From NCBI RefSeq assembly GCF_024169925.1, contig NZ_JALJXF010000001.1, positions 1,804,001-1,868,000 of the forward strand: a stretch of DNA of 64,000 nucleotides, in the 5' to 3' direction. Within the stretch, counting starts at the first letter, position 1, and each line of letters opens with the position of its first letter. The stretch comes from Methylorubrum extorquens (GTDB taxonomy: Bacteria > Pseudomonadota > Alphaproteobacteria > Rhizobiales > Beijerinckiaceae). The notes under the pieces are model-generated. The model was not told the origin of the DNA. It saw only the letters and a list, made by a program, of their open reading frames with translations, and ran no database searches. Shown here in pieces: positions 43,871-48,060 of this stretch. Made by a program: the position numbers and the translations under genes.

Positions 43871-43881
43871 TTGGCGTCTGA
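43678..43881 (+). CDS. Possible leader ORF overlapping the kaiC start
   Basis: 67 residues from ATG 43678, rich in Pro, Arg and Ala in the first half, then RSSMTILRLDSGPDG and ending TCLGV. Its last eleven bases overlap the kaiC TTG start, which would permit translational coupling. No family is recognised, and the first half may not be coding. Confidence 0.35.
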   Translation: MTTPLPHDASVPSRRRLRPAPLPAPAPFFVSRPQRSSMTILRLDSGPDGLPPMTAGEETALETCLGV

Positions 43882-45598
43882 ATCCGCAAGCCCGCCCCAA
43901 GGTACGCCCAAAGACGCATCCAAGGGCGTTCCCGCGCTCGCGAAAGTCGCCACCGGCATCGACGGCTTCGATACCATCACCTTCGGCGGCCTGCCGAAGG
44001 GGCGCCCCTCGCTGGTCTGCGGCGCCGCCGGCTGCGGCAAGACGCTGTTCGCCACCACCTTCCTCGTCAACGGCGCGACCCGCTTCGGCGAGCCCGGCGT
44101 GTTCATGAGCTTCGAGGAGCGCGCCGATGATCTCGTCGCCAACGTGGCCTCCCTCGGCTACGACCTCGACGGGCTGGTGGCACAGGGCAAGCTCGCCATC
44201 GACCACATCCGCGTGGAGCGAAGCGAGATCGAGGAGACCGGCGAGTACGACCTCGAAGGGCTGTTCATCCGCCTCGGCTTCGCGGTGGATTCGATCGGCG
44301 CCAAGCGCGTCGTGCTCGACACCATCGAAACCCTGTTCGCGGGCTTCTCCGACGAGACGGTGCTGCGTGCCGAACTCCGTCGCCTGTTCGGCTGGATCAA
44401 GGACCGGGGGCTGACCGCGATCATCACCGGCGAGCGCGGCGACGGCCAGCTTACCCGCCAGGGGATGGAGGAATACGTCTCCGACTGCGTGGTGCTGCTC
44501 GACAACCGCGTCGAGGACCAGATCACGACGCGCCGCCTGCGGGTGGTGAAGTATCGCGGCTCGGCCCACGGCACCAACGAGTACCCGTTCCTGATCGACG
44601 CCGAGGGCATCAGCGTCCTGCCCGTCACCGCGGCCGACCTCGATTACAGGCTTCCCGACGGCGTGGCCTCCACCGGCATCCCCGGCCTCGACGCGATGCT
44701 CGAACCCGGCGGCTTCCACCGCGGCACCAGTATCCTCGTCTCGGGCGAGTCCGGCACCGGCAAGACCATGATCACCTCGAGCATGGTCGACGCGGCCTGT
44801 GCCCGCGGCGAGCGCTGCATGTCCTTCGTGTTCGAGGAGAGCGGCGACCAGATCATCCGCAACGCGCGCTCGATCGGCCTCGACCTCGCGCGCCATGTCG
44901 AGGCGGGCCTGCTGCGGTTCGAAGCGGCGCGCCCGAGCCTCTACGGCCTGGAGATGCACTTGGCGCGCATGCACCGCGATATCGACCGCTTCGCGCCTTC
45001 CGTGGTGGTGGTCGATCCGCTCTCGGCGCTGCGGGGCCCGCCGGCCGAGCTTCAGGCGACGATGCTGCGCATGGTCGACATGCTGAAGAGCCGCGGCATC
45101 ACCTCGGTGTTCACCAGCCTGCGCGAGGACGGCAGCCTCGACCACGACAGCAACATCGGCGTCTCCTCGCTGATGGATGCCTGGATCAAGCTCCTCAACG
45201 TCGAGGCCAACGGGGAGCGCTCGCGCACGCTCTACGTCATCAAGGCCCGCGGCATGCGTCACTCGAACCAAGTGCGCGAGTTCAGCATGTCGGGCGACGG
45301 CATCGCCCTCGTCGACGCCTATATCGGCCCGGCGGGCGTGCTGACAGGCACCGCCCGCATCGTGCAGGAGGCGGAGGAAGCCGCCGCCGGTCTGCGCCGC
45401 GAACAGGAGAGCCGCCGCCGCCGGCGCGAGGCGGAGCGGCGGCGCCAGTCGCTGGAGCGCCAGATCGATGAACTGCGCGCCACCCTGGAAGTCGCGGCGG
45501 AGGAAGAGGCGGTGCTGTTGAGCGAGGACGAGATGCGCGAGGCGATGCTGACGAGCGAACGGCGCATTCTCTCGACCCGCCGGGGAGGCACCCAATGA
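43871..45598 (+). CDS. kaiC: KaiC family double-domain ATPase
   Basis: 575 residues. TTG start 43871 is the only in-frame candidate before the conserved region and has GGAGA at 43860-43864. Two RecA-like domains: CI with Walker A GAAGCGKT (51-58), catalytic FEE and Walker B VVLDTIE; CII with Walker A S291-GESGTGKT-299, FEE and VVVVDPL. The phosphosite position reads G-V-S432-S433-L-M-D, Ser-Ser in place of Ser-Thr of cyanobacterial KaiC. A C-terminal coiled coil ([19 protein letters not shown]) replaces the KaiA-binding tail, and kaiA is absent. Probably a clock-like or hourglass timer, or a stress regulator. Confidence 0.94.
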
Positions 45599-45972
45599 GC
45601 GGCTCCGAACCAACCGAGGACGGGCTCGACGCCGACGCCGCCGGCATGGTGGAGGAGGGCCATTACCACCTGCGCCTCTACGTCGCCGGACAGACCGCCA
45701 AGTCGCTGACGGCGATGGCCAACCTCAAGCGCTTCTGCGAGGAGCACCTTGCCGGCCATTACGACATCGAGGTCATCGACCTGATGAAGAACCCGCAGCT
45801 CGCGGCCGGCGACCAGATCCTGGCGATCCCGACCCTCGTGCGCCGCCTGCCCGCACCGCTCAAGCGCATCATCGGCGACCTGTCCAACACCGAGAAGGTG
45901 CTGGTCGGCCTCGATATCCGGCCCCAGAACCTCGCCGAGACAAATCCCGCAACGAAGGTGGACGGCGTTTGA
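45595..45972 (+). CDS. kaiB: KaiB family protein, first copy
   Basis: 125 residues, ATG 45595 overlapping the kaiC stop. Thioredoxin-like KaiB fold: [21 protein letters not shown] and [17 protein letters not shown], then [23 protein letters not shown]. The N-terminus carries about 20 extra acidic residues compared with cyanobacterial KaiB. In cyanobacteria KaiB binds the KaiC CI ring after a fold switch. Coupled to a second, different KaiB gene. Confidence 0.93.
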
Positions 45973-46307
45973 GCGGCGGGGACATCACGGGCCACGGGGA
46001 AGCCGGGCGCACCCGGCTGCGCCTCTACGTCGCCGGCACCTCGCCGCGCTCGACCCGCAGCATCGAGAGCGTGCGCCGCCTGTGCGAACATCGGCTCGGG
46101 GGCGCATGCGACCTCGAAGTGGTCGACATCTACCAGCAATCGGCGCTCGCGGGCGCGGACGGCGTGGTCGCGGCGCCGACCCTGGTGCGGCTCTCCCCCC
46201 TCCCCGCCCGGCGCATCACCGGCGATCTGAGCGACGAGCGGCGCGTCCTCGACGGGCTTGGGCTCGAAGACCTCGCGCGCGAGATCGAGATCGCCGATGA
46301 GCGCTGA
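45969..46307 (+). CDS. KaiB family protein, second copy
   Basis: 112 residues from TTG 45969, overlapping the first kaiB stop (TTGA). Conserved [39 protein letters not shown] and [20 protein letters not shown]. It is clearly diverged from copy 1, so the pair may bind different states or partners. The last eleven bases overlap the kinase gene. Confidence 0.9.
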
Positions 46308-48060
46308 GCCCGCTTCCACGGCGCTGGACGAGGCGCAGGCGCGCATCCGTGAACTGGAGACGCGGCTGGAGGAGGTCGAGGACACCCTCGCGGCGATCCG
46401 CCGGGGCGATTTCGACGCCATCGTGGTCGAGGGTCCGGGCGGCGAGCGGCTCGTCTATACCCTGGAGAATGCCGACCGGCCCTACCGGGTGCTGATCGAG
46501 CAGATCCAGGAGGGCGCCTTCACCCTCGGCCCGGACGGGACGCTGCTCTACTGCAACCGCCGGCTCGCCGAGACCCTGGGAACCCCGCAGGAGCGCCTGA
46601 TCGGCCAGCCCTTCGCGCGCTTCGCCGCCGAGGGCCAGGGGGCGACCCTGGCCGCCCTGATCTCTCAGGCGGCGCGGATGCCGGCGCGCGGCGAGATCGC
46701 CCTGTGCGACGAGGCGGGGATCGAGCGCCCGGCCTACCTGTCGCTGAGCCGCCTCGACGGCGACGGCGACACCCTCCTCCTGTGCGGGGTGATCACCGAC
46801 CTCACGGCGGAGCGGCTGCGCCTGCACGAACTCGCCGAGGCCAACGCGCGCCTGCGCGCCGAGGTGGCCGAGCGCGAGCGGATCGAGGAGGCCCTGCGCC
46901 AGAGCCAGAAGATGGAGGCGGTGGGCCAGCTCACGGGGGGCGTGGCGCACGACTTCAACAACCTGCTCACCGTCATCAAATCCTCGACCGACCTGCTCAA
47001 GCGCCCCGATCTCGCCGAGGAGCGCCGCCGCCGCTACGTCGATGCCATCTCCGACACGGTGGCCCGCGCGGCCAAGCTGACCGGCCAGCTCCTCGCCTTC
47101 GCCCGGCGCCAAGCCTTGAAACCCGAGGTGTTCGATGCGGGCCGAGGCGTCGCGTCGGTGGCCGACATGGTCGGCACGCTCACCGGCGCGCGCATCCAGG
47201 TGAAAACCCTGATCGAGCCCTGTTTCGACGCGGCGGGCGAGCCCTTCGCCTGCCTCGTGGAAGCCGATCCGAGCCAGTTCGACACCGCGCTCGTCAACAT
47301 GGTGGTCAACGCCCGCGATGCCATGGACGGCGAGGGTACATTGAGCATCCGCGTCGGCCATGCCAGGCAGATCCCGGCGCTGCGCACCCATCCGGCCGTG
47401 CCCGGCGATTTCGTGGCGGTGTCGATCGGCGACACCGGCTCCGGCATCGCCCCGTCCGACCTGACGCGGATCTTCGAACCGTTCTTCACGACGAAGGGTG
47501 TCGGCCAGGGCACCGGCCTCGGGCTGTCCCAGGTCTTCGGCTTCGCCAAGCAGTCGGGCGGCGACATCGCGGTGGAGAGCGCGCTGGGACAGGGCACGAC
47601 CTTCACCCTGTTCCTGCCGCGGGCCAAGGTCGCGCCGACGATGGTCGAGTCCGCCGACGAGCCCGAGCCGCTGGCCCCCGGCCACGGCACCTGCGTGCTT
47701 CTGGTCGAAGACAACCGCGAGGTCGGCGCCTTCGCGACGCAGGCGCTCGCCGAACTCGGCTACGGCACCGTCTGGGCGATGGATGCGGAGCAGGCGCTGG
47801 CCGAACTCGACCGGACGCCGGAGCGCTTCGACGTGGTGTTCTCCGACGTGGTGATGCCCGGCATGAACGGCGTCGAACTCGCGCGCACGATCCTGGGGCG
47901 GACGCCCGGCATGCCGATCGTGCTCTCCTCCGGCTACAGCCACGTGCTGGCCGAGGATGGGCGCCACGGTTTCCCGCTGCTGCACAAGCCCTACTCGGTG
48001 GAAGACCTCTCGCGCATCCTGCGCCGGGCGATCCAGCGGCGCAGCGCAAGGGCGAAGTGA
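46297..48060 (+). CDS. Hybrid PAS-sensor histidine kinase of the kai operon
   Basis: 587 residues from ATG 46297, eleven bases inside kaiB copy 2. No membrane segment. An N-terminal coiled coil ([20 protein letters not shown]) is followed by a PAS domain (residues about 65-180), HisKA with [17 protein letters not shown], an ATPase domain with [18 protein letters not shown] and [11 protein letters not shown], and a C-terminal receiver with [11 protein letters not shown], phospho-acceptor in FSDVVMPG and lysine in LLHKPY. It could read the KaiC/KaiB state, as SasA does in cyanobacteria, although it lacks the SasA KaiB-like domain. Confidence 0.93.

Follow-up and report, generated by a model that had tools for sequence, protein, structure and literature searches.

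A kaiC-kaiB-kaiB-kinase operon of Methylorubrum extorquens probably corresponds to the kaiC1 cluster of strain AM1 and may pair two KaiBs of different fold states

We analyzed a stretch of 64,000 nucleotides of Methylorubrum extorquens (contig NZ_JALJXF010000001.1, positions 1,804,001 to 1,868,000; hereafter the window), taken from a genome of 5.26 Mb in 4 contigs, and focused on an operon containing kaiC, two different kaiB genes and a hybrid histidine kinase gene. This cluster is very probably the kaiC1-kaiB2-kaiB1-kaiR1 cluster of M. extorquens AM1, that is, a KaiBC module of the KaiC2 type that works without KaiA and sets resistance to ultraviolet (UV) and temperature stress. The operon type is already published, from M. 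extorquens AM1, and what we add is a modest new hypothesis on the contrast between its two KaiBs. The features of the operon are the following (positions are those of the window).

43871..45598, + strand: kaiC (AM1 kaiC1 type; KaiC2-like), 575 residues, TTG start with GGAG 7 bases upstream
45164..45169, + strand: codons of the Ser432-Ser433 phosphosite, numbered from the TTG start; the residues of AM1 S432A/S433A (PMC8069551)
45350..45595, + strand: C-terminal extension of KaiC, residues 494-575, putative coiled coil
45595..45972, + strand: first KaiB, 125 residues, ATG start; groups with KaiB_RS, the KaiB of Rhodobacter sphaeroides; ground-state-like model of low confidence
45969..46307, + strand: second KaiB, 112 residues, TTG start; thioredoxin-like (fold-switched) model
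46297..48060, + strand: hybrid histidine kinase (KaiR1 type), 587 residues, ATG start; PAS, HisKA, HATPase and receiver domains

The consecutive genes overlap by 4, 4 and 11 bases. Pfam recognizes two KaiC ATPase domains in KaiC, one KaiB domain in each of the small proteins and the order PAS-HisKA-HATPase-receiver in the fourth gene product, so that gene coordinates and domains confirm the compact kaiC-kaiB-kaiB-hybrid PAS kinase operon with 4-11 base overlaps that had been proposed in the initial annotation from the letters of the DNA. For the kinase, we preferred the ATG at 46297, as the longer open reading frame (ORF) starting with TTG at 46258 seems less likely. The absence of kaiA, also claimed at that stage, was borne out by a domain search in which no KaiA was found in the whole genome while the S. 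elongatus KaiA was recovered (14 control genomes).

The two clusters of AM1, kaiC1-kaiB2-kaiB1-kaiR1 and kaiC2-kaiR2, are described in a review by the AM1 group that cites Iguchi 2018 as the primary paper (PMC8069551); in the part of that review available to us, kaiR1 is named without being called a kinase. According to the same source, phosphorylated bands are lost in KaiC1 S432A and S433A and in KaiC2 S426A, the kaiC1 mutant is more UV-sensitive and the kaiC2 mutant more resistant, and KaiC1 is a positive, KaiC2 a negative regulator of temperature-dependent UV resistance (PMC8069551). The window shares with the AM1 kaiC1 cluster the gene order, the two KaiBs and the Ser432/Ser433 numbering, and no difference was found in this comparison by description. 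Moreover, the genome has a second KaiC (contig C1, about 754.4-756.2 kb; L091:4369-8252), followed with a 4-base overlap by a hybrid kinase. Its phosphosite, matched by eye, reads Ser-Tyr, and one of three ATG starts places this serine at 426, as in AM1; the cluster is of the AM1 kaiC2-kaiR2 type. Only two KaiB matches were found in the genome, both in the window. The published AM1 work, with its UV resistance phenotypes and the loss of phosphorylation in S432A/S433A (PMC8069551), thus supports the earlier suggestion of a KaiA-less stress module. We also noticed in this genome an NYN-domain protein (143 bits), which could be a candidate for the LabA named in AM1.

KaiC itself consists of two KaiC ATPase domains with Walker A and Glu pairs that are kept across loci. 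Its top solved matches are the KaiC of R. sphaeroides (KaiC_RS), 8dba with 674 bits and 8fwi with 670 bits (residues 21-572, tail included); the coil-less form 8db3 gives 655 bits, and two-domain KaiC chains other than KaiC_RS give 315-374 bits. Because of the 674-bit match to 8dba, the assignment as KaiC is not due to chance. Among the matches listed, the nearest KaiC comes from Methylobacterium sp. Leaf123 (96% identity), followed by those of Methylorubrum species (82-90%). The Ser432-Ser433 pair is indeed present when residues are numbered from the TTG start, and so is the long tail: 82 residues rich in E, K, R, Q, A and L lie past residue 493, and their alignment with 8dba up to residue 572 suggests a coiled coil.

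Two serines have been described for the cyanobacterial KaiC2 in PMC5520375, which also names the CI R-linker, whose lack would be a further mark of KaiC2, and the subgroup with these two serines, kaiC2, is where a tail extension of about 50 residues is chiefly found (PMC10076222). Both KaiC2 traits, the two phosphosite serines and the C-terminal extension of about 50 residues, are found in the window KaiC, which by traits and scores is placed in the known KaiC2 subgroup. We compared the operon with the best 80 of 537 confirmed relatives from a genome contig scan, and for this reason all locus counts given here favour near relatives. Results showed that Ser-Ser, which had been presented as a special feature of this KaiC, is the rule in the lineage (79/80 loci, with Ser-Ala in 1/80); we therefore rejected it as a peculiarity of the window. 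Beyond the position of residue 493, at least 79 residues follow in 80/80 loci.

In 76 of the 80 loci, KaiC is followed by at least two KaiBs and then by a histidine kinase: 72 are plain, 2 have an extra kinase, 1 has three KaiBs (L063, archaeal) and 1 has four in a row between KaiC and kinase (L066, planctomycete). Three loci have one KaiB and a kinase, and in the last one, with one KaiB, the record ends 346 bases after kaiC (L045). Record titles assign the loci to Alpha-, Beta- and Gammaproteobacteria, Bacteroidota, Planctomycetota, Rokubacteria and Desulfobacterales among the Bacteria, and to Methanoperedens-type archaea.

To compare the two KaiBs, a tree was built from 75 first and 75 second KaiBs (74/80 loci and the window) and four references, namely three cyanobacterial KaiBs and KaiB_RS, Legionella KaiB not being among them; the loci with three or four KaiBs (L063, L066) and those with one (L045, L053, L077, L083) were left out. 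A single branch separates all second KaiBs from the first KaiBs (support 90/96; 88% of 200 bootstrap trees), and the first/second label changes once on the tree against a shuffled mean of 51.6. All four references fall on the first-KaiB side, with KaiB_RS standing among the first KaiBs on a long branch. The deep forks are rough, given a short alignment and a bootstrap that had yet to settle. By sequence, both KaiBs match KaiB_RS best (105 bits for the first KaiB, its best solved match), as do the profiles of the first and second KaiBs (A1, A2), made from 24 of the 75 pairs hand-picked for spread. Legionella KaiB scores 99 bits with the second-KaiB profile versus 77 with the first.

KaiB is able to adopt two folds. 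KaiB_RS mostly occupies the ground state and becomes mostly fold-switched upon changes at I68, V83 and N84, Legionella KaiB was crystallised fold-switched, and 2qke is named as a ground state (PMC10808063). We therefore looked at these positions in the 75 pairs, using KaiB_RS numbers. Position 68 is hydrophobic in 74/75 first KaiBs and in 49/75 second KaiBs, charged residues standing there in 14/75 second KaiBs; position 83 is V or I in 75/75 first KaiBs and charged in 41/75 second KaiBs; position 84 is Gly in 75/75 and 52/75, respectively. In the window, the residues at 68, 83 and 84 are L, V and G in the first KaiB and A, D and G in the second. Position 84 is uninformative here because both have Gly, and position 83 is the telling one. 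The first KaiB of the window, with its KaiB domain, hydrophobic 68 and Val83, has the ground-state pattern.

AlphaFold2 (AF2) models were made from each KaiB family's own alignment, with 71 of the 75 pairs; to keep the list shorter, L028, L029, L038 and L050 had been removed before any fold was predicted. The second KaiB was predicted in the thioredoxin-like order b-a-b-a-b-b-a with a mean predicted local distance difference test (pLDDT) of 87. Among its fold matches in the PDB, Legionella KaiB Lpp1115 (4KUN) came top, followed by KaiC-bound or switch-stabilised KaiBs, and SasA N-domains appeared from rank 11. Compared with Lpp1115, KaiB_RS is nonetheless the better fit to its sequence. The first KaiB was predicted in a ground-state-like order with a terminal strand (mean pLDDT 58), its top 17 fold matches being free cyanobacterial KaiB crystals, 2qke included, with switched KaiBs coming later and overlapping partially. 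Models and residues together suggest that the first KaiB may be switchable and the second permanently fold-switched. The initial annotation had raised the idea that two KaiBs might give competing binding states, and a contrast of this kind would sharpen it.

More generally, we tentatively propose that KaiC2-type operons of bacteria and archaea might encode a matched pair, a metamorphic KaiB and a KaiB locked in the binding fold, providing a fast constant hold beside a slow timed hold on the KaiC ring, so that KaiC would sense both the current state and the time elapsed without needing KaiA. This is a possibility that we would not yet bet on. Such an operon pairing a ground-state with a fold-switched KaiB was not found in a literature search covering titles and abstract openings, with subscription journals mostly outside it.

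Several points weigh against the picture drawn so far. The identity with the AM1 cluster rests on gene order, residue numbering and the second cluster, and it is from traits and scores that KaiC was placed in KaiC2. The module is patchy: KaiC is found at E 1e-50 or better in 7/13 same-genus genomes, one of them partial with an internal stop, and KaiB in 11/99 family genomes, and the module is therefore optional. The second KaiB, like the first, is closest to KaiB_RS by sequence, and the model of the first KaiB is of low confidence. Moreover, AF2 with a broad alignment favours the fold-switched KaiB (PMC10808063), and the second model alone is no proof; for this reason the contrast between first and second outweighs the second model taken alone. 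Finally, the roles given to the KaiBs and the kinase of this cluster are putative. In a same-genus genome, we also observed a partial KaiC match (residues 25-317) with a stop (G487:C1:1766889-1767767), which may be a decaying copy.

Other explanations of the second KaiB have to be considered. It may have ceased to be a partner of KaiC and drifted to another stress role, which we regard as conceivable, though doubtful. Its lower conservation (mean column identity 36% vs 51% for the first KaiBs) would agree with that, as would the fact that its closest fold match, Legionella KaiB, is tied to stress and not to circadian rhythms (PMC10808063); on the contrary, at least two KaiBs are kept between KaiC and kinase in the 76 loci, across several phyla. 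Another idea is that both KaiBs alternate on the CI ring of KaiC by complementary lateral faces. In T. elongatus, the KaiB-KaiB contact is made by R23, K26, E84 and D91 (PMC6769508), and these positions rank 1, 7, 2 and 9 of 31 charged columns by the charge difference between first and second KaiBs, only 34/20000 random four-column sets being as extreme. The mean pairing score was also highest for second-to-first, 0.65, with the three remaining pairings at 0.21, 0.13 and 0.09. However, this pairing is positive in 30/75 pairs, negative in 2/75 and strictly the best of four in 18/75, it scores zero in the window (against 4 for the homotypic pairing of T. elongatus), the charge shift at K26 is opposite in sense to those at R23, E84 and D91, and KaiB_RS sits on KaiC with no KaiB-KaiB contact (PMC10076222). 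A charge hotspot is thus present, but with a pairing that is weak overall and absent in the window we rejected the mixed ring, which is very improbable.

The adjacency of the second kaiB and the kinase genes suggests that the two products could together perform the function of the cyanobacterial SasA, with the kinase docked on KaiC through the KaiB-like protein. The SasA N-domain 6x61 is matched by the second-KaiB profile with E 3.6e-6 versus 0.25 for the first-KaiB profile, and SasA N-domains, which figure among the 50 fold matches listed for the second KaiB, are missing from the list of the first. On NCBIfam NF006800, labelled 'histidine kinase' and which we take to be the SasA model, the second KaiB outscores the first in 9/10 loci compared. 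Controls undid this profile evidence, as a fragment of the cyanobacterial KaiB 2qke reaches 31.1 bits on the same model, at least as high as 7/10 second KaiBs, and a KaiB_RS fragment reaches 26.2 bits, above 3/10 of them. SasA is defined by a KaiB-like domain fused to a histidine kinase; in the window the genes are separate, and a KaiB domain was found in none of the 79 kinase ORFs that the 80 loci contain. Distance coupling with the kinase given KaiC (74 loci) was -0.05 for the second KaiB against 0.15 for the first, a difference of -0.21 (bootstrap 5-95% -0.36 to -0.06), and the kinase occurs without a second KaiB in three loci and in R. sphaeroides. With no support from fusion or coupling, the split SasA was rejected and appears quite improbable. 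A true circadian or hourglass timekeeper anticipating day and night on leaf surfaces is unlikely as well: the nearest solved system, KaiC_RS/KaiB_RS, is described as a timer of the hourglass kind with the ATP-to-ADP ratio as its driver (PMC10076222) and the AM1 authors mention the day-night cues of the leaf habitat, but the AM1 section of their review deals with temperature and UV regulation, not with rhythms (PMC8069551), and the presence inside the genus is patchy. By analogy, some timer role of the window module is plausible.

The stress module with two contrasting KaiBs can be set beside the known systems. KaiC_RS and KaiB_RS of Rhodobacter (Cereibacter) sphaeroides (8DBA, 8FWI, 8FWJ) share the Ser-Ser KaiC and the tail (a coiled coil in KaiC_RS), KaiB_RS groups with the first KaiB, and a kinase gene follows; the R. 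sphaeroides operon differs in having one KaiB and a kinase of the HWE type, as seen on its plasmid pB. Rhodopseudomonas palustris has a kaiC-kaiB-histidine kinase cluster sharing KaiC, KaiB and PAS kinase, with one KaiB named in the available text, where kaiA is given as restricted to cyanobacteria (PMC4794148). The cyanobacterial KaiABC with SasA shares the two-domain KaiC, KaiB and an associated kinase, whereas the window has no KaiA, Ser-Ser for Ser-Thr, the tail extension and no fusion of KaiB and kinase. Among the kinases scanned (10 of 79), HisKA and HATPase are present in 10/10, PAS in 9/10 and the receiver in 7/10, and hence the domain build varies. A role of the hybrid kinase as built-in output of the module fits the gene order, its phosphotransfer role being putative.

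Upstream of the operon, we found one further feature.

43605..43642, + strand: conserved block lying about 230 bases upstream of kaiC, shared by six upstream regions of the Methylorubrum group

In this block, GTATTGCC and ATTACGGGAGCC are identical in the window and in five close relatives (L011, L012, L013, L014 and L038), and the whole, GTATTGCC...TTTGCATTACGGGAGCC, is kept in these six while much of the surroundings is not. The block is possibly a site for a promoter or a regulator, in which case a long leader would follow it. A small ORF at 43627-43881, which shares 11 bases with the start of kaiC, was rejected as a gene after many length changes were seen by eye in an upstream alignment of nine relatives. 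The - strand carries, at 43070-43564, a stand-alone response-regulator receiver that is read in the direction leading away from kaiC; NF010076 (PRK13557) is the best NCBIfam match both of this receiver, which scores below the curated cut-off, and of the operon kinase. An ordinary two-component pair adjoins the kai operon at 40906-43045, a response regulator (receiver and DNA-binding domain) and then a sensor kinase. Neither Rfam families nor tRNAs were found in the window.

Taking these data together, the module might work as follows. KaiC would be phosphorylated at Ser432/Ser433, as was shown in AM1. As in R. sphaeroides, where two hexamers are linked into a dodecamer by the tail, which stands in for KaiA (PMC10076222), the extension could pair two KaiC hexamers by its coiled coil. 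The first KaiB would then switch fold, bind the CI ring after ATP hydrolysis and speed the ATPase, on the model of KaiB_RS, which binds the ring post-hydrolysis with neighbouring KaiBs out of contact (PMC10076222). The second KaiB, permanently thioredoxin-like and binding-competent according to model and sequence, may act as a constant, untimed competitor, cap or adaptor. Finally, the hybrid PAS kinase, as gene order and domains suggest, could, through a phosphorelay, convey the state into or out of the module.

The window cluster is thus, in all likelihood, a copy of a system already described in this group of leaf bacteria, to which a laboratory strain also belongs. The value of the analysis lies in making a neglected question testable, namely why operons keep two different KaiBs: at least two are present in 76 of the 80 loci, as two lineages where tested, and structural work on KaiCs of this type used R. 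sphaeroides, with one KaiB in its kai operon. If one KaiB proves switchable and the other locked, an extra regulatory layer, not found in the literature examined, would be added to KaiA-free timers.

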